DNA of 64,000 bases from Pandoraea anhela (GTDB lineage Bacteria; Pseudomonadota; Gammaproteobacteria; Burkholderiales; Burkholderiaceae): positions 285,966 through 349,965 of the forward strand of contig NZ_CABPSB010000004.1 in the NCBI RefSeq assembly GCF_902459655.1, in the 5' to 3' direction. The translations under genes and the position numbers were made by a program. Positions 838-53,533 of this stretch are shown piece by piece (positions within the stretch are counted from its first letter, which is position 1; the number at the start of each line of letters is the position of its first letter). The notes beneath the pieces are model-generated. The model ran no database searches. It saw only the letters and a program-made list of their open reading frames with translations, and was not told the DNA's origin.

Positions 838-1779
838 TCAGTCGGTGGCGGGAGGCGTCGACAACGCTGAGGGCGCCAGGTCACGTACCGACGCGTTCGG
901 CATGGTAGCAGGCACCACCGGCAGGCCCTCAGGGGCGCCCAGAATTACGTGGATGCGGCCGTCGCGGGAACCGTTCACGCGGGCATTACCGAGTTTCGCG
1001 TTGCCCGCTCGTACAAGGCGGTTCCCCGGCGTCGCGTCGCCCCCGTCGGGACTGAAACGCCGGTACAGCGCCAGGACTGCCGCAACGTAATCCCGCGTCT
1101 CGGCATAAGGGGGAATCTGGTCCGCATGTCGCGCCACGGCACCCTCACCCGCGTTGTACGAGGCCAGCACCAGTTCGAGACGGTCGGGATAGCGCGCTTG
1201 CAGGTCTCGCAAATAGCGTGCTCCTGTCAGCACATTGATTCGCGGATCAGTGAGCTTCTCTGCCACCGTGCGACGCGCGTCCGAGCGCAATCCGTAACGC
1301 TCGCCGGTCGCCGGCAACACCTGCATCAGACCGACGGCGCCTTTGGGCGACACTGCATCGCTGTCAAATCCCGACTCCGCCGCAATGACCGCCTTCAGCA
1401 AGGCCGCATCGACGTGAAATTTCTGTGCGGCCTGCGAAATCACGGGCGTCAGTTTTTTCAGATTGGGATGACGCGACAGGGCATCGTAAAGACGCGAGCG
1501 GTCGCTGCCGCTGACCGTGTCGCCTTGCGCTTGCGTACGCCAGTCGACACTGCCGTCGTGACCGACGACGAGCCGATAGCGCGCATCGAGTTTGCGCGCC
1601 GCGAGATGCGCCACACCGTTTTCGTCGACGTAACCGTAGAGTTCGGCGTGCGCGAGCGGCGTTGCGATAAGCAGCATGGCTGCCAACGCGGGACCTGCGA
1701 GTTGCCGCAGAGAGACTTTTTGGCGGCACGCACGCATGCGCGCCGCCATCGAAACTCGACTATTGCTGACCTTTGACAT
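838..1779 (-). CDS. Lytic transglycosylase (SLT family) with N-terminal DUF4124-like segment
   Basis: Predicted periplasmic murein-cleaving lytic transglycosylase of 313 aa. A hydrophobic signal segment spans about residues 27-46 (LAGPALAAMLLIATPLAHA). Next comes a short stretch resembling DUF4124 (ELYGYVDENGVAHLA), then an SLT/goose-lysozyme fold at about 110-240. The catalytic glutamate is E135 in AVIAAESGFD, followed by the family motifs SPKGAVGLMQVLP and ASYNAGEGAV. The ATG at 1779 overlaps the upstream DUF4399 gene by 20 bp. An in-frame ATG at 1749 would remove the overlap and still keep the signal peptide, so the start is uncertain. It sits inside a same-strand run from parE to parC and is probably cotranscribed with DUF4399. 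Confidence 0.85.
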   Translation of the reverse strand: MSKVSNSRVSMAARMRACRQKVSLRQLAGPALAAMLLIATPLAHAELYGYVDENGVAHLAARKLDARYRLVVGHDGSVDWRTQAQGDTVSGSDRSRLYDALSRHPNLKKLTPVISQAAQKFHVDAALLKAVIAAESGFDSDAVSPKGAVGLMQVLPATGERYGLRSDARRTVAEKLTDPRINVLTGARYLRDLQARYPDRLELVLASYNAGEGAVARHADQIPPYAETRDYVAAVLALYRRFSPDGGDATPGNRLVRAGNAKLGNARVNGSRDGRIHVILGAPEGLPVVPATMPNASVRDLAPSALSTPPATD

Positions 1780-2179
1780 GCACCTTGATCGTCTGGCTCA
1801 TGGCCGGACCGTACGACTGGTGCGCACCGTTGGCGAATTGCATCGTCAGCGTGTGATCGCCCGGCGTCAGATCGACGCTCGTCTCGGTCTGCCCTTTGCC
1901 GAAATGCAGGTGGGTCTCGTCGGTGGGAACGACCTGACCTGCCGGAACCGGATCGCCGTCGATGATGAGATGGTGATGGCCGGTTTCGGGCACCATTTCG
2001 CCCGCCGGTTTGATCGCCATGCCCGCGACGCCGAACTTGACCACCACCGGGTTCGAAACCGTCGCGCCATTGGCAGGCGAGACGAAGAAGACGCGCGGCT
2101 GGGCCGACTGTGCCAAGGCGGTAGCGCTTGCGCCAGCAAGCAGCATCGGCACGAAAATGCAACGCATAGAACGCAACAT
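1760..2179 (-). CDS. DUF4399 domain secreted protein
   Basis: Small exported protein of 139 aa. It has a Sec signal peptide (residues 1-24, ending ATALAQS) followed by a single DUF4399 domain. The diagnostic features are the FxxPxNGATVxxP start, the GHHHLIIDGDP histidine cluster around residues 67-77, and the THLHFGKGQTE and LTPGDHTLTMQF blocks. The family has no established biochemical role, and the conserved His-rich loop might bind a metal, which is inference. The gene lies between parE and the transglycosylase on the same strand and overlaps the latter slightly. It is assigned by motif pattern only. Confidence 0.8.
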   Translation of the reverse strand: MLRSMRCIFVPMLLAGASATALAQSAQPRVFFVSPANGATVSNPVVVKFGVAGMAIKPAGEMVPETGHHHLIIDGDPVPAGQVVPTDETHLHFGKGQTETSVDLTPGDHTLTMQFANGAHQSYGPAMSQTIKVHVKGQQ

Positions 2180-2296
2180 AACGCGACTCCCGGAGGGTGA
2201 AGGCTGGATTATCCCACTATGTGAGCACTCACGCTGGTTTGCTCGACGCGAGTGCGGCGAAAATGCTTTTTCCCACAGCCCCGATAAGCGCCAACA

Positions 2297-2311
2297 CCCC
2301 GCCGGGCGGGG
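2297..2311 (-). terminator. GC-rich hairpin after parE
   Basis: A perfect GC palindrome, CCCCGCC-G-GGCGGGG, sits 19 bp beyond the parE stop. On the minus strand it can be extended by GCGCC/GGCGC pairing outside the core. It lacks a clear U-run, so it may be a Rho-assisted terminator or an RNA-stability element rather than a classical intrinsic terminator. Confidence 0.35.
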
Positions 2312-2329
2312 CGCTGCGGCATTTTCCGC

Positions 2330-4309
2330 TCAGATGTCGGCTTCCACTTCATTGCCCTTGGCTTCGAGCCAGCTACGGCGCTGCGCCGCCTCGCCCTTGC
2401 CCATGAGCATGTTCATGCGGGTCACGGTCGCGTCGAAATCGAGGTGTCCCAATGCGACCGGGCTCAAACGACGCGTGTCGGGATTCATCGTCGTTTCCCA
2501 CAACTGCTCGGCGCTCATTTCGCCCAGCCCCTTGAAGCGGCTGATGGACCACGCGGATTCCCGTACGCCGTCCTTGCGCAGCTTGTCGAGAATCGCTTCG
2601 AGTTCGCCCTCGTCCAGCGCGTACAGCTTCTGCGCGGGCTTCTTGCCACGCGCCGGGGCATCGACACGATACAACGGCGGGCGCGCCACGAACACATGTC
2701 CCTTGGCGATCAGTTGCGGGAAATGGCGGAAGAACAATGTAAGGAGCAGCACCTGAATGTGCGAGCCGTCCACGTCGGCATCGGAGAGGATGCAGATCTT
2801 GCCGTAACGCAGATTCGACAAATCGGGGGTGTCGTTCGCGCCATGCGGATCCACACCGATCGCCACGGCGATATCGTGCACTTCGTTGTTCGCGAACAGA
2901 CGATCGCGTTCGGTCTCCCACGTGTTGAGGACCTTGCCGCGCAACGGCAGAATCGCCTGAAACTCCTTATCGCGCCCCATCTTCGCCGAACCGCCCGCTG
3001 AGTCGCCCTCGACCAGGAACAGTTCGTTGCGCGTGATGTCTTCCGTCTCGCAATCGGTCAGCTTGCCCGGCAGCACCGCCACGCCCGAGCTCTTTTTCTT
3101 CTCGATCTTCTGGCCGGCACGCGTGCGCGCCTGCGCCTGACGAATCACGAGTTCGGCCAGCTTCTTGCCATGCTCGACGTGATGATTGAGCCACAGTTCG
3201 AGCGCGGGGCGCGTGAACGACGACACGAGACGCACCGCGTCACGGCTGTTCAGACGCTCCTTGATCTGCCCCTGGAACTGCGGATCGAGCACCTTCGCCG
3301 ACAGGACGAACGACACGCGCGAGAATACATCTTCCGGCAACAGCTTCACGCCCTTGGGCTGAAGATTGTGCAACTCGATGAAGCCGCGCACCGCCTGGAA
3401 GAGCCCTTCGCGCAGCCCGGACTCGTGCGTGCCGCCGGCGGGCGTCGGAATCAGGTTGACATAGGATTCGCGCACTTGTGCGCCGTCTTCCGTCCATGCC
3501 ACCACCCATGCCGCGCCTTCGCCTTCGGCAAAGCTGTCTTCGCTGCCGTCCGCAAAACGTTCGCCTTCGAACAGCGGAATGAGCGGCTCGGCGCCGCCGA
3601 GCGACTCGACGAGGTAGCCACGCAGGCCATGCTCGTAGAACCACGTCTGCGCTTCGCCGTTCTTTTCCTGACGCAACGTCACACGCACGCCGGGCAGCAG
3701 CACGGCCTTCGAGCGCAGCAGACGTTGCAACTCACCCAGCGGTAGCGTCGGGCTGTCGAAATACTTCGCATCGGGCCACACGGTCACACGCGTGCCGCTC
3801 TTCTTTTCGCCGCGTTGCGCCGCGCGCGAGTGGAGCGCCACGTTGACGTTGCCGCCATCGGCGAATTCAAGCTCGGAGACCTGACCGTCGCGCCAGACCG
3901 TGACGGCCAACCGCGTCGCCAGCGCATTCGTCACCGACACCCCCACCCCGTGCAAGCCGCCCGAGAAGGTGTAAGCGCCGCCAGCAGCCTTGTCAAACTT
4001 GCCGCCCGCGTGCAGACGCGTGAACACGATTTCGACCACCGGCACGCCTTCTTCCGGGTGGATGCCGATAGGAATGCCGCGGCCGTCGTCCTCGACACTC
4101 ACCGAACCGTCCTTGTTCAGCGTGACGAGAATCTGCTTGCCGTAGCCGCCGAGCGCTTCGTCCGAAGCGTTGTCGATGACTTCCTGAATGATGTGCAGCG
4201 GATTTTCGGTGCGGGTGTACATGCCCGGGCGTTGCTTGACCGGCTCAAGGCCCTTCAGGACCTTGATGGACGCTTCGCTGTACTGGGCAGGCGTATTTTT
4301 TTTCGACAT
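2330..4309 (-). CDS. parE: DNA topoisomerase IV subunit B
   Basis: ATPase subunit of topoisomerase IV, 659 aa, full length for the family. The GHKL ATP-binding fold is at the N-terminus: the presumed general base E43 and Mg-binding N47 lie in IQEVIDNASDEA, followed by DDGRGIP at 74-80 and GGLHGVG at 117-123. The transducer domain follows to about residue 390. The TOPRIM metal-binding motifs are EGDSAGGSA (434-442) and DADVDGSH (510-517). The short C-terminus lacks the GyrB insert, which supports ParE rather than GyrB, as does the parC gene downstream. The start is ATG at 4309. Just upstream is an inverted pair of DnaA-box-like sequences, described separately. Confidence 0.96.
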   Translation of the reverse strand: MSKKNTPAQYSEASIKVLKGLEPVKQRPGMYTRTENPLHIIQEVIDNASDEALGGYGKQILVTLNKDGSVSVEDDGRGIPIGIHPEEGVPVVEIVFTRLHAGGKFDKAAGGAYTFSGGLHGVGVSVTNALATRLAVTVWRDGQVSELEFADGGNVNVALHSRAAQRGEKKSGTRVTVWPDAKYFDSPTLPLGELQRLLRSKAVLLPGVRVTLRQEKNGEAQTWFYEHGLRGYLVESLGGAEPLIPLFEGERFADGSEDSFAEGEGAAWVVAWTEDGAQVRESYVNLIPTPAGGTHESGLREGLFQAVRGFIELHNLQPKGVKLLPEDVFSRVSFVLSAKVLDPQFQGQIKERLNSRDAVRLVSSFTRPALELWLNHHVEHGKKLAELVIRQAQARTRAGQKIEKKKSSGVAVLPGKLTDCETEDITRNELFLVEGDSAGGSAKMGRDKEFQAILPLRGKVLNTWETERDRLFANNEVHDIAVAIGVDPHGANDTPDLSNLRYGKICILSDADVDGSHIQVLLLTLFFRHFPQLIAKGHVFVARPPLYRVDAPARGKKPAQKLYALDEGELEAILDKLRKDGVRESAWSISRFKGLGEMSAEQLWETTMNPDTRRLSPVALGHLDFDATVTRMNMLMGKGEAAQRRSWLEAKGNEVEADI

Positions 4310-7560: not shown

Positions 7561-8104
7561 TTTGTATCCTTCTTTACTGCAAAAAATTTGACTAATAACT
7601 ATCCCTCTCGAATCGGCTTACGGTGTTGAGAGTGCAAATTTGCACAAATGTTTCCGTGAAGTGCACGCAGCGTAGCTGTCAAATATGACAGTCGCACGAC
7701 AAAAAGGTGACTGACATACGACAACGAACGCGACGGAACGTTGCACACGGCGCAAGACCGTATGCGCACCGACGACGCGCAAAACCACGCGCCATTCGAG
7801 CGTTCTTTACGACTTCCTGTTTCGGGGAACGATGGTCGACCGTCTTTTCGTAACGGCGACTCGAACGTCTAAGCGTTCAGAGTGACATGCGTCGACACCT
7901 ATCGTGCGACACATCTGTAGTGATTTTCGTGCCACACGCTGGCCGACACCGGGCGGATTCGGCATCCGCCGGGCATTTTATGCCACGTGGACTGCGTCTA
8001 ACGCACCCGAAGTTGACGGGCGGATGAATGCAGTTGACGAATCATATCAGAAAAATGTCGGGGCTGCACCAAAGTGCGTCGCCCCGTCATGGGCCGGCCC
8101 GCGA
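7561..8104. other. 544-bp non-coding interval
   Basis: No supportable gene is seen here. The part nearest 7561-7700 is AT-rich and holds the two dyads listed separately. It probably acts as the control region of the 77-aa gene. The part from 7700 to 8104 has no recognisable motif. Short open frames here lack ribosome sites and family resemblance. Confidence 0.5.
7632..7691. promoter_or_regulatory. Two perfect dyads upstream of the 77-aa gene
   Basis: GTGCAAATTTGCAC (7632-7645) is a perfect 14-bp palindrome. CTGTCA-AATA-TGACAG (7676-7691) is a perfect 6-bp inverted repeat with a 4-base spacer. They lie 72-85 and 116-131 bp upstream of the 7560 ATG. The second site also fits CTGT-N8-ACAG formally, but it lacks the adjoining -10 element found at the two convincing LexA boxes in this window, so another regulator is as likely. 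Confidence 0.5.
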
Positions 8105-16411: not shown

Positions 16412-16427
16412 CTGTGCAAATATACAG
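16412..16427 (-). promoter_or_regulatory. LexA box (SOS operator) of dinB
   Basis: On the minus strand the sequence is CTGTATATTTGCACAG, a perfect CTGT-N8-ACAG with an AT-rich core. It is followed directly by TATTTT, a plausible -10 element, and the dinB ATG begins 18 bases after the box. Repression by LexA is established for dinB homologues. Confidence 0.85.
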
Positions 16428-49233: not shown

Positions 49234-50166
49234 ATGCTCAACGCTCTTTCTCCCAGCATCCGGCCAACGCTCGGTTTCATCGGCGCAGGGCGCGTGGCCC
49301 GGGCGCTGGCGAGCGCAGCGACCCGCGCGGGATACGAAGTCACCGTCGTTGCAAGCCGGAATATCGACAAAGCGCGACACATCGCCGCGACATTGCCGGA
49401 TTGCGCGGCATGGCATGTCATGCAATCCGACGACATGAACGCCGTCTTCTCGAAAGCGGATCTTGTTTTCCTCACCGTGCCGGACGATGCCATCGCCGCC
49501 TGCGCGGCACACCTGACGCCTCAAAAGGGGCAGGCGCTGGTTCATTGCAGTGGAGCATCCGAGGTCGGGCTTCTTGCCCCCTCGACACGGAACGGCGGGC
49601 AGATCGGCGGCTTTCATCCGCTGTTTCTCTTCGCCGGGCTCGACGACGATGCGACCCGGTTGTCCGGCTGCGCGATCACGATTGAAGCCGAAGCGCCGCT
49701 GAACGAAATCCTTGAGCGTTTCGCCGGCGACATAGGGTGCCGCGCGCTGTCGATACCGCCGGGCGAGCGCATGCGGTATCACGCGGGCGCCAATTACGCC
49801 GCCAGCTTTCTGCTGTGTCTGCTCGACGAGGCAACGCACCTCTGGCAAGCCATCGGCATGAATGAGGCTGACGCCCGTGACGCCATGTGGCCGCTCGTCA
49901 TGGGCACGCTCGACGCGGCTCGAGAACGCGGGCTCTCTGGCGCGCTTGCCGGCCCGGTCTCGCGCGGGGACGCAGGCATCGTCCAGCGTCACACGGCGGC
50001 CCTTGCGGCAATGGGCGGCAACCACGCGACGCTCTATTCGCTGCTGACCTTGCGCGCGATTCATCTGGCGCGCCAGCGCCCCAACGCCGATGTCGCGGCG
50101 CTGGACACCATCGCTCGAACGATCGCTCCCTACGTGCCTCCAGCCACCCCCGAAGGCAACGCATAA
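49234..50166 (+). CDS. NAD(P)-binding oxidoreductase with DUF2520 (pyrroline-5-carboxylate-reductase-like)
   Basis: Protein of 310 aa. An N-terminal Rossmann fold has the dinucleotide loop GFIGAGRVARALASAATRAGYEV in outline (GAGRVA at 17-22). The C-terminal half matches DUF2520 (HPLFLFAGLDDDA, YHAGANYAASFLLCLLDEA in outline). The overall architecture follows F420-type/P5C-reductase-like enzymes, but the substrate is unknown; ketopantoate- and P5C-reductase-like roles are only analogies. It begins 12 bp after the TM2 gene. Confidence 0.82.
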   Translation: MLNALSPSIRPTLGFIGAGRVARALASAATRAGYEVTVVASRNIDKARHIAATLPDCAAWHVMQSDDMNAVFSKADLVFLTVPDDAIAACAAHLTPQKGQALVHCSGASEVGLLAPSTRNGGQIGGFHPLFLFAGLDDDATRLSGCAITIEAEAPLNEILERFAGDIGCRALSIPPGERMRYHAGANYAASFLLCLLDEATHLWQAIGMNEADARDAMWPLVMGTLDAARERGLSGALAGPVSRGDAGIVQRHTAALAAMGGNHATLYSLLTLRAIHLARQRPNADVAALDTIARTIAPYVPPATPEGNA

Positions 50167-50309
50167 GGTCAACCACGACTCGCAACATTTCCAGTACGCT
50201 GCTACCGCCCTTAGCGGCAGGCGGGCAATGTTGCCCAATTCACGACTCGCATCGCTCGAACCACGCGAACCACGCTCACGACCCATCTTTGGTCTCCTTC
50301 GTCGAAATA

Positions 50310-50325
50310 CTGTATAAAAACACAG
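50310..50325 (+). promoter_or_regulatory. LexA box (SOS operator) before the radical SAM gene
   Basis: CTGTATAAAAACACAG is a perfect CTGT-N8-ACAG with AT-rich centre, and its flanks extend the match to TACTGT...ACAGTA. A perfect TATAAT (50326-50331) follows immediately, the same layout as at the dinB LexA box. The radical SAM ATG (50394) is 68 bases further on. There is no other promoter candidate here that I can see, so SOS control of that gene is likely. Confidence 0.8.
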
Positions 50326-50393
50326 TATAATGACAAGCGTTCCCTGTGCCCACACAACGCTCGTGTCGGGCATGGATATTCAGGAGACGAGTC

Positions 50394-51563
50394 ATGGCAT
50401 CTTCATTTGTACCGCCCCCGTCCCGTAAGGGCCGGGGCGCTGTCGCCAATCTCGAATCTCGTTTCTCGGAGTACCGTCGCGAAAGCGACGAGAACCGCCA
50501 TGAATCGGACGCGGCCCAAGAATGCGAGGTCAAATTCGTCACACAGGTCGCACTGGAGAACGCACGAACGATCATCTCCCGGAATACCTCTCCGGACATT
50601 CCGTTCGACCGCTCGATCAACCCCTATCGGGGATGCGAGCATGGTTGTACTTATTGTTTTGCCCGCCCGACGCACGCCTACCTCGGGCTCTCCCCAGGCC
50701 TGGACTTCGAAACCCACCTGTACGCGAAGCACAACGCGGCAGAACGCCTCGACGCAGAATTGCGCAAACGGGGCTACCAACCGGCCCTGCTCGCCCTCGG
50801 CGCCAATACCGATCCCTATCAGCCGATCGAGCGGGAATATCGCATTACGCGGAGCGTGCTCGAAGTGCTGGAGCGCTTCGGGCATCCTGTCGGCATCACC
50901 ACCAAATCCGCCCTTGTCACGCGCGACATCGACATCCTGTCATGCATGGCTCAGCGTGGGCTGGTGCGTGTTTTTATCTCTGTGGGAACGCTCGACGCAG
51001 AAATCGCCCGCAAGATGGAGCCTCGCGCAAACACGCCTCCGAAGCGTATCGAAGCGATACGCAAGCTGACAGACGCCGGCATCCCCACGGGGGTCGTCGT
51101 CGCGCCGATCGTGCCCGCACTCACCGATTTCGATATCGAGCGAGTGCTGACGACGGCAGCGGATGCCGGCGCAACCTACGCCGCCTACGTGATGCTGCGA
51201 TTACCAAGAGAGGTGCACGACATTTTCGTCGACTGGCTGGAGGCGAACTATCCGATGCGAGCCCGTCATGTCATGAGTTTGATCGAGCAGGTTCGCGACG
51301 GAAAACACAATAGCGCAGCGTTCGGCACCCGAATGCGCGGCACCGGCTTGCATGCAGAACTGATCCGGCAGCGATTTCATCTGGCAGCCCGCAAGTTGGG
51401 GCTTAACCAAGCCCGACCGCCCTTGAGAAACGATCAATTCCGCGTGCCGGACGCGGCGCCCGCCGGCAACGGGCCTGCAACGACGCATGGCCGGGCGCAG
51501 CACGACAGGACGACCGGCACTGAGTTCACGGGGAAATTCGATCCGCAGATGCCGCTATTTTGA
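50394..51563 (+). CDS. Radical SAM protein, PA0069/SplB-like
   Basis: Radical S-adenosylmethionine enzyme of 389 aa. The cluster motif CxxxCxxC is C81-C85-C88 in CEHGCTYCFA. Before it, PFDRSINPYRG is typical of the PA0069/Rv2578c family (a SplB-like relative of spore photoproduct lyase). The remainder is a TIM-barrel-like domain (TKSALVTRDIDIL, PIVPALTDFDIE) with a variable C-terminal tail. The ATG at 50394 has AGGAG eight bases upstream. Its LexA box suggests a DNA-damage function, but the reaction is unknown. It is not necessarily a photoproduct lyase. Confidence 0.87.
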   Translation: MASSFVPPPSRKGRGAVANLESRFSEYRRESDENRHESDAAQECEVKFVTQVALENARTIISRNTSPDIPFDRSINPYRGCEHGCTYCFARPTHAYLGLSPGLDFETHLYAKHNAAERLDAELRKRGYQPALLALGANTDPYQPIEREYRITRSVLEVLERFGHPVGITTKSALVTRDIDILSCMAQRGLVRVFISVGTLDAEIARKMEPRANTPPKRIEAIRKLTDAGIPTGVVVAPIVPALTDFDIERVLTTAADAGATYAAYVMLRLPREVHDIFVDWLEANYPMRARHVMSLIEQVRDGKHNSAAFGTRMRGTGLHAELIRQRFHLAARKLGLNQARPPLRNDQFRVPDAAPAGNGPATTHGRAQHDRTTGTEFTGKFDPQMPLF

Positions 51564-51653: not shown

Positions 51654-52142
51654 TCACTCTTCGACGTGGACGGTCAGCGTTTCCTTGATTTCTTCCATTA
51701 CGACGTAGCTTTTCGACTGCACGGCCCCCGGCAGTTGCAGCAGGATATCGCCCAGCAACTTGCGGTACTCCGACATCTCGCGAATTCGTGCCTTGATCAG
51801 GTAATCGAAGTCGCCGGAAATCAGGTGACACTCCATCACTTCGGGGATCCGCAGCACTTCGCGGCGGAACTGATCGAACATGTTGCCGGATTTGTGATCG
51901 AGCGTGATTTCGACGAACACGAGCAACGCCGCGCCCAGCGCCGCCGGATTTACCCGGGCGAAGTACCCCATGATCACCCCATCGCGCTCCATGCGTTTCA
52001 CACGTTCGATGCAAGGTGTGATCGACAGGCCGACCTGCTCGGACAGGTCTTTCATGGACATGCGCCCGTCCTGCTGGAGCAACGTCAGGATGCGGCGATC
52101 GAGACGATCCAGCGTCCGGACCGATTGCTGCTGCACTCTCAT
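51654..52142 (-). CDS. Lrp/AsnC-family transcriptional regulator
   Basis: Feast/famine regulator of 162 aa. An N-terminal winged helix-turn-helix (residues 13-60, LDRLDRRILTLLQQDGRMSM then LSITPCIERVKRME) is followed by the RAM ligand-binding domain (PEVMECHLISGDFDYLIKARI in outline; the GDxDYLxK segment is diagnostic). It is divergent from dadA with a 104-bp shared control region, the standard position for a regulator of alanine catabolism. Homologous Lrp-type activators of dadA are known (for example DadR), so it likely responds to alanine. Confidence 0.9.
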   Translation of the reverse strand: MRVQQQSVRTLDRLDRRILTLLQQDGRMSMKDLSEQVGLSITPCIERVKRMERDGVIMGYFARVNPAALGAALLVFVEITLDHKSGNMFDQFRREVLRIPEVMECHLISGDFDYLIKARIREMSEYRKLLGDILLQLPGAVQSKSYVVMEEIKETLTVHVEE

Positions 52143-52246: not shown

Positions 52247-53533
52247 ATGAAGGTCATCGTTCTCGGCAGCGGCGTCATCGGCGTTACCAGCGCCTATTAC
52301 CTGGCGAAGGCCGGGCACGACGTCACGGTGCTCGATCGCCAAGCTGGCCCGGCGCTCGAAACCAGCTTCGGCAACGCCGGCCAGATTTCGCCCGGATATG
52401 CGTCGCCGTGGGCTGCCCCGGGGATTCCGACGAAAGCCGTCAAGTGGCTGTTCCAGAAACACGCCCCGCTCGCCATCCGCCCGGACGGCACGCTTACGCA
52501 GCTCAAGTGGCTCTACCAAATGCTGCGTAACTGCACGCCCGAGCGTTACGCGGTCAACAAGGAACGGATGGTGCGGATCGCGGAGTACAGCCGCGATTGT
52601 TTCCGTGAACTGCGTGCGGAGACCGGCATCGCTTACGAAGGCCGCCAGGCGGGTACCCTTCAACTTTTCCGAACGGAAGAGCAACTGGCGAACGCCGCAC
52701 GCGACATCGCAGTGCTCGAGGAGGCCGGCGTGCCGTTCGAACTGCTCGACCGCAACGCTCTTGCCAATGCGGAACCCGCACTGGCCGCCGTTTCGCACAA
52801 GCTGACCGGCGGGCTGCGTCTGCCGAACGACGAAACGGGCGACTGCCAGATGTTCACGACGCGTCTGGCCGCAATGGCCGAAGCGCTCGGCGTGAAATTC
52901 CGCTACGACATGGCGATCGATGGGCTGCACGTCGCCGGCGACAAGATCGAGGGCGTCGTTTGCGCAGGAACGTTGCAGCGTGCAGACGCCTACGTCGTCG
53001 CACTCGGCTCGTACTCCACACCGTTCCTTCGCGGCATCGTTGACATTCCGGTGTATCCGCTCAAGGGCTACTCGATTACCGTACCGATCGTCGACGAATC
53101 GCGCGCGCCGGCCTCGACAATTCTCGACGAGACCTACAAGATCGCCGTGACGCGATTCGAAAACCGTATCCGTGTCGGCGGCATGGCGGAAGTCGTCGGC
53201 TACAACAAGGCGCTGAATCCGGCGCGTCGCGCAACGTTGGAAATGGTCGTCAACGATCTTTACCCGGGCGCGGGCAACACTGCCGAAGCATCGTTCTGGA
53301 CCGGACTGCGCCCGATGACGCCGGACGGTACGCCGATCGTGGGCGCCACTGCCCTGCGCAACCTGTTCCTGAACACAGGGCACGGCACGCTCGGCTGGAC
53401 GATGTCCTGCGGGTCGGGCCAATTGCTCGCCGACCTGATGTCAGGACGCCGGCCTGCGATTCTGGCCGACGACCTGTCCGTGGCGCGCTACAGCGGTGCC
53501 CCCAACGCACAGGGCGAACCGGCCTTCGCCTGA
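52247..53533 (+). CDS. dadA: D-amino-acid dehydrogenase
   Basis: FAD-dependent membrane-associated dehydrogenase of 428 aa that oxidises D-alanine and other D-amino acids to keto acids. The FAD-binding motif GSGVIG is at 7-12 in [18 protein letters not shown]. Other DadA motifs are [17 protein letters not shown], and the C-terminal [16 protein letters not shown] and [20 protein letters not shown] in outline. The start has CAGGAG. It is adjacent to ald, so the cell can use both alanine enantiomers. A terminator follows directly. Confidence 0.96.

Follow-up and report, generated by a model that had tools for sequence, protein, structure and literature searches.

The stretch of Pandoraea anhela DNA analysed here (64,000 nucleotides, hereafter the window) contains a radical SAM gene of the PA0069 family that is preceded by a predicted LexA operator and flanked by a DUF2520-type gene upstream and a convergent Lrp-type regulator gene downstream (Table 1). 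The operator, whose sequence context is AATACTGTATAAAAACACAGTATAAT, is placed between a −35-like and a −10-like hexamer and overlaps the predicted promoter. Together, the two hexamers agree with a sigma-70-like promoter at 10 of 12 positions, which is a match to consensus and not proof of function. Because this promoter brackets the operator, bound LexA would cover it. The ATG of the radical SAM gene lies 68 nt past the end of the box. The upstream gene ends 227 nt ahead of the radical SAM gene and the downstream gene is convergent; transcription of the radical SAM gene on its own is therefore probable. A reading made from the letters of the DNA alone (the sequence-only reading) had described an exact CTGT-N8-ACAG, TATAAT directly after it and a start codon 68 nt on, and each of these features was borne out. 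It had also pointed to a dinB operator of the same design in the window; this operator was recovered, reading CTGTATATTTGCACAG on the minus strand with TATTTT directly after it and the dinB ATG 17 nt away.

Table 1. Features of the locus, with the dinB operator of the window and, in the last two lines, the frames beside a further LexA-type box of the same genome
Feature	Position	Strand	Basis and remarks
Upstream neighbour, DUF2520-type by homologue	49234..50166	+	Clusters with L157, which matches DUF2520
−35-like hexamer TCGAAA	50302..50307	+	Consensus scan; 18-nt spacer to the −10-like hexamer
Predicted LexA operator CTGTATAAAAACACAG	50310..50325		Top-scoring LexA site of the window; best-conserved 24-mers in 24 same-genus upstream regions
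−10-like hexamer TATAAT	50326..50331	+	Consensus scan; abuts the operator
Shine-Dalgarno-like AGGAG	50382..50386	+	Well conserved in the genus alignment
PA0069-family radical SAM gene	50394..51563	+	389 aa; C81-x3-C85-x2-C88; NF033668, PF04055, family alignment
Downstream neighbour, Lrp-type regulator, convergent	51654..52142	−	Lrp, 216.5 bits, just under the cut-off of 233
dinB LexA operator	16412..16427		dinB recognised by Pfam IMS; serves as internal control within the window
DUF2471-like frame (positions in L012)	869–1510	−	Flanks the L012 box
GST-like frame (positions in L012)	1474–2346	+	Flanks the L012 box

The operator against chance and the SOS set of the genome

The CTGT-N8-ACAG core occurs four times in the window, against a mean of 0.48 in shuffled sequence, and at least four occurrences were seen in 0 of 100 shuffles. 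Across the whole genome (6.05 Mb), there are 40 such cores and 55 matches to the reversed pattern, so that the core is not enriched and by itself proves little. An extended matrix of 24 columns was therefore trained on 45 distinct operators of the PA0069-family gene from family, order and class orthologues in other genera, with the genus of the window and dinB excluded. With this matrix, the site at 50310 obtained the top score of the window (36.2), followed by the dinB operator at 16412 (33.6), both well apart from the next best score of 6.5 and from the ceiling of 11.7 reached in 50 first-order shuffles of the window. The remaining two core matches, at 7676 and at 53363 (inside a dadA-like gene), scored 4.0 and −1.0. 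The top ranks of the 50310 site and the dinB operator also uphold the use of dinB as an internal control in the sequence-only reading.

The genome encodes LexA and carries the same motif on known SOS genes: exact LexA-type boxes precede imuA, uvrA, dinB and, as a tandem pair, lexA, and the recA box, CTGGTTTTTTATACAG, has one core mismatch. A further LexA-type box of this genome, CTGTATAAAATCACAG, is located at 1501 of locus L012, between the DUF2471-like and GST-like frames.

Conservation of the operator and its relation to LexA

Upstream regions were compared in five samples, each drawn from a larger group. The family is carried by 24 of the 25 genomes searched in the genus (the window's own included), all of which were used, together with all 5 carriers found in the taxonomic family outside the genus. 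Of the 66 carriers that passed the cut-off in the order, 64 were used (without G514 and G080, the latter truncated at a contig end); the class is represented by 83 of 88 (without G215, G223, G241, G522 and G606) and other classes of the same phylum by 79 of 102, drawn for the most part from the highest scores. In a single case within the genus, the 1.2-Mb genome G003 gave no hit for the radical SAM family, and two stop codons fall within its match to the LexA DNA-binding domain.

Scanning orthologue upstream regions for the LexA motif was the check proposed with the sequence-only reading. Between −250 and +30 of the start, a strict CTGT-N8-ACAG was present in 23/24 genus, 4/5 family, 17/64 order, 25/83 class and 0/79 other-class orthologues, and the reversed control pattern gave a single hit, in the other-class sample. 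A matrix scan at a 99% shuffle threshold, trained on the strict hits so that only its non-strict hits are independent, found the box in 24/24, 4/5, 31/64, 29/83 and 2/79, respectively; G590 is the one family genome that lacks it. The pattern GTTC-N7-GTTC, the alphaproteobacterial LexA-type motif, shows the opposite distribution: 71/79 in the other classes versus 0/24, 0/5, 1/64 and 1/83 in genus, family, order and class (reversed control: 4/79 in the other classes, one each in order and class, none in genus and family). Two of the 83 class orthologues, L089 and L295, have TTAG-N6-TACTA boxes, the xanthomonad-type LexA motif. At order level, L022, L048, L054, L057 and L061 carry CTGG-N8-CCAG near the gene start instead of CTGT-N8-ACAG, perhaps reflecting a shifted LexA specificity.

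Conservation in the genus is concentrated on the operator. In the alignment of the 24 upstream regions, mean conservation reaches 0.948 at 50308–50331, against 0.670 in the leader and 0.560 in the sequence upstream of the site. The divergent loci L016–L018, with 64–69% protein identity, keep the box beside a different upstream sequence, L018 with a core mismatch. A scan of public genomes, for which the search interval was widened slightly and the alphaproteobacterial pattern loosened, covered the best 80 of 558 confirmed loci; among these 80, CTGT-N8-ACAG precedes the gene in 15/15 Pandoraea loci (82–90% identity) and 7/7 Pseudomonas loci. The other 58 of these best 80 have the alphaproteobacterial-type motif in 47 cases and neither motif in 11, among them a Cupriavidus locus (L191) and two from Methylophilus. 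Since named alphaproteobacterial loci share the same motif, we take most of the 79 other-class genomes to be Alphaproteobacteria. Under the title Candidatus Marinimicrobia, four loci (L168, L170, L182 and L189) encode a protein 55–56% identical to that of the window and have a GTTC-N7-GTTC box; these bins may be mislabelled.

The presence of the box was then set against that of LexA. For 144 of the 147 orthologues from the order and the class, the genome was searched for the LexA DNA-binding domain, and a match at E up to 1e-20 was called canonical. The box was found in 55/95 genomes with a canonical LexA, 3/27 with a divergent one and 0/22 with none, an association with a Fisher p of 2.5e-10 when relatedness is ignored. 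Across 299 Pseudomonadota genomes, a LexA-domain match (E 0.001) is present in 149/153 carriers of the family versus 93/146 others, the latter including six genomes whose only family matches are weak or partial.

By the matrix, the box is absent from 33/64 order and 54/83 class orthologues, and 40 of the 95 canonical-LexA genomes lack it. An open frame of at least 90 codons (a frame, not a proven gene) terminates within −97 to +26 relative to the start in 30 of the 40; transcription in those genomes may therefore begin further upstream. When longer flanks (up to about 1.5 kb, some less) were scanned at 18 box-less loci, a strong CTGT-type box was found upstream only in L266, at −456. Another of the 18, L076, box-less by the CTGT type, lies behind a GAAC-N7-GAAC box. 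At the other box-less loci, regulation may have been lost, may have moved or may operate through a different motif. The comparative evidence strongly supports the LexA control that the sequence-only reading had proposed for this gene, the box being kept across the genus, in 4/5 family genomes and at some of the order and class loci.

Identity of the protein and its genomic context

The window protein is a member of the PA0069 family by score, with 499.2 bits against NF033668 (NCBIfam; cut-off 360), and it matches PF04055 at 65.1 bits (cut-off 29.5). The next nearest models, those of the Rv2578c family (NF038135 and NF038136), give 228 bits, below their cut-off of 430, and PF20903 gives 19.1 against a cut-off of 27. 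The spore photoproduct lyase (SPL) model TIGR04070 yields 22 bits against a cut-off of 400, and none of the 299 Pseudomonadota genomes contains an SPL over that cut-off.

In an alignment of 45 family members, only three cysteines are invariant. They form the C-x3-C-x2-C motif, present in 45/45, which the sequence-only reading had correctly placed at C81, C85 and C88. B. subtilis SPL has four conserved cysteines (C91, C95, C98 and C141) and uses C141 together with Tyr99, according to the part of the source drawn on here (PMC3742179). As comparators we used the SPL-like proteins L379–L381, which score 282, 282 and 254 bits, below the SPL cut-off, and stand in for B. subtilis SPL itself. Their fourth shared cysteine, which presumably corresponds to C141 of B. 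subtilis SPL, aligns with position 137 of the PA0069 family, where cysteine occurs in 0/45 members. A T-D-P motif beside this position aligns between the two groups. At the position of Tyr99 in B. subtilis SPL, directly behind the third cluster cysteine, 29/45 members, including the window protein, have Phe and 16/45 have Tyr; at column 130, 14/45 have a cysteine. On the model score and the missing cysteine, we rejected an identity as SPL. The label 'SplB-like' in the sequence-only reading is thus misleading, and a photolyase label for the PA0069-family gene is not supported.

The best match in a profile search of the PDB was the peptide-maturation enzyme SkfB, limited to a short stretch (E 3.3e-4); globin-coupled diguanylate cyclases and NifB followed over partial stretches (E 0.02–0.08), and no SPL appeared up to E 1. 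A single-sequence search gave only three plectin chains (E 0.35–0.43).

Two order-level genes of the family, in L266 (minus strand, 160–2268) and L267 (plus strand, 582–2747), carry an in-frame insert that looks intein-like by eye. It is located directly ahead of the third cysteine of the C-x3-C-x2-C motif, such that this cluster cysteine would also be the residue following the intein.

In genome G238, from the same class as the window, a LexA-like frame, a Y-family polymerase gene and a PA0069-family gene are arranged head to tail (L378, 1249–4189), with a gap of 3 nt and then an apparent overlap that depends on the choice of start codon. They lie behind a GAAC-N7-GAAC box of the alphaproteobacterial type, GAACAAAATGAGAAC, 18 nt ahead of the first start, where 0.175 sites are expected in 6 kb. 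The three genes form an apparent operon with the PA0069-family gene third. A polymerase neighbour is a single case among the 195 loci searched. In a survey of neighbouring frames of at least 100 codons, no cluster other than the gene's own frames recurred in more than 25 of 80 loci. Co-occurrence with ImuA was uninformative, as 296 of 299 genomes match at E 0.001 and 60 over the cut-off.

A tyrosine-recombinase gene abuts the radical SAM gene in L051 (377–1480) and in L266 (2285–2677, minus strand; N-terminal domain only). Among plasmid records, relatives were found in 77 of 72,556, all below 60% identity and 26 of them covering 80% of the query or more; alphaproteobacterial genera account for 24 of the 25 listed, and Bacteroides and Parabacteroides also recur often in the tally. 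Phage records gave partial matches only (14 of 50,697), none over 80% of the query. These plasmid and phage searches gave no indication that the radical SAM gene came from a phage or a plasmid, and no PADLOC anti-phage defence family matched.

Proposed role, competing readings and known systems

In the model that we favour, LexA on its operator would fill the space between the −35-like and −10-like hexamers and block RNA polymerase; the sites, their position and their conservation are observed, and repression is what they suggest. RecA on single-stranded DNA would then trigger self-cleavage of LexA, such that the gene would be transcribed with lexA, recA, imuA, dinB and uvrA. As in the radical SAM superfamily generally, a [4Fe-4S] cluster on C81, C85 and C88 would cleave SAM to give a 5′-deoxyadenosyl radical. 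The product would most likely act on damaged or aberrant nucleic acid, in repair or in conditioning lesions beside translesion polymerases. We infer a role on DNA from the regulation and from the single G238 operon; LexA-type control and an operon with LexA-like and Y-family polymerase genes are consistent with lesion handling. Because the SPL cysteine position is absent from the alignment, the enzyme would work without the cysteine-based hydrogen return of SPL.

The operator might instead be a chance match or the site of another regulator, leaving the gene outside LexA control. The lack of core enrichment in the genome and the two core matches of the window that score like chance point in that direction; against it stand the extended motif score, the conservation confined to the operator, the switching of motifs between groups and the dependence of the box on LexA. 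Taken together, these make such a coincidence scarcely credible and LexA control of the gene nearly certain on comparative grounds. That the gene is under LexA control and that its product acts on nucleic-acid damage is, as a joint claim, likely.

The main rival is an SOS-induced radical SAM enzyme whose substrate is RNA, a protein or a peptide and not a DNA lesion. Radical SAM enzymes with such substrates are common, the best PDB profile match is to SkfB, and the length limit of the neighbour survey means that a small peptide partner could be missed. The retention of SOS control under at least two unrelated LexA motifs and the lack of a recurrent neighbour cluster count against this possibility, which we consider unlikely. 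A further reading, in which the protein is an SPL-type DNA photoproduct repair enzyme and the locus an instance of the SOS-controlled 'photoreactivation' proposed for splB in 2012, draws on the shared superfamily and cysteine spacing, the weak TIGR04070 and sub-cut-off PF20903 matches, the aligned T-D-P motif and the name splB given to such a gene in the relevant part of PMC3323433. The cysteine at column 130 would allow some members a cysteine elsewhere in the site. This reading is nevertheless very improbable, given a score far under the SPL cut-off, the lack of any over-cut-off SPL in the 299 genomes, position 137 without a cysteine in any aligned member and, more equivocally, Phe at the Tyr99 position in most of them. 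Returning to the favoured model, we propose tentatively, at somewhat less than even confidence, that the PA0069 proteins form a distinct type of radical-SAM enzyme for DNA damage that acts independently of light, is widely kept as an SOS component of Pseudomonadota beside translesion polymerases and lacks the thiyl-radical step of SPL.

LexA control of such a gene is known in kind, and the window gene adds one more case. Control has been kept while the operator motif changed, which marks the gene as a genuine component of the damage response, not a peculiarity of a single genome. PA0069 itself is said to have been placed in the P. aeruginosa LexA regulon by Cirz et al. in 2006. Our literature search found no paper joining LexA with PA0069, and none joining Rv2578c with LexA. 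Within the literature searched, what appears new is the tally of operators under LexA motifs unrelated to one another, the boxes at Pseudomonas loci, the xanthomonad-type boxes in two genomes, the dependence of the box on the presence of LexA, the polymerase operon of G238 and the evidence that the gene is not an SPL.

Several reports, as represented by the portions used here, touch on related genes. SplB is described as SOS-regulated in several species (PMC8565304), SplB-like proteins have been linked with ImuB-C operons (PMC3765255), and SOS boxes at 'radical SAM proteins' are mentioned without detail (PMC6595937). The Bacteroidetes network of PMC8565304 resembles the present case in placing a COG1533 gene under SOS-type repressors, and differs in its non-canonical LexA proteins and other operator motifs. 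The 'radical SAM' of PMC5554334 is NirJ, and the corresponding portions of PMC9578287, PMC12796719, PMC8944484, PMC13114513 and PMC6120978 contained nothing on a gene of this family.

Among known families, NF033668 includes the window protein by score and assigns no function to it. SPL shares the radical SAM superfamily and the C-x3-C-x2-C spacing, and the PA0069 members differ in having no aligned fourth cysteine. The Rv2578c family has an intein-form NCBIfam model, and intein-like inserts occur here in L266 and L267. The closest precedent is the work of Sanchez-Alberola et al. in 2012 (PMC3323433), which, in the sections considered, predicts LexA control of splB in alpha- and betaproteobacteria, reports that this regulation was not observed in gammaproteobacteria and describes the product as a predicted photolyase homologous to spore photoproduct lyase. 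From name and description we infer that this splB is the PA0069-family gene, and both studies argue SOS membership from sites under divergent motifs. They differ in that CTGT-N8-ACAG precedes all seven Pseudomonas loci among the best 80 of 558 examined here and in that the protein is not an SPL. Because the family is without the SPL-type fourth cysteine, a photolyase-like annotation points experiments at the wrong lesion; if the PA0069 proteins do form a distinct radical-SAM DNA-damage family, the published photoproduct-lyase reading would be a misassignment.
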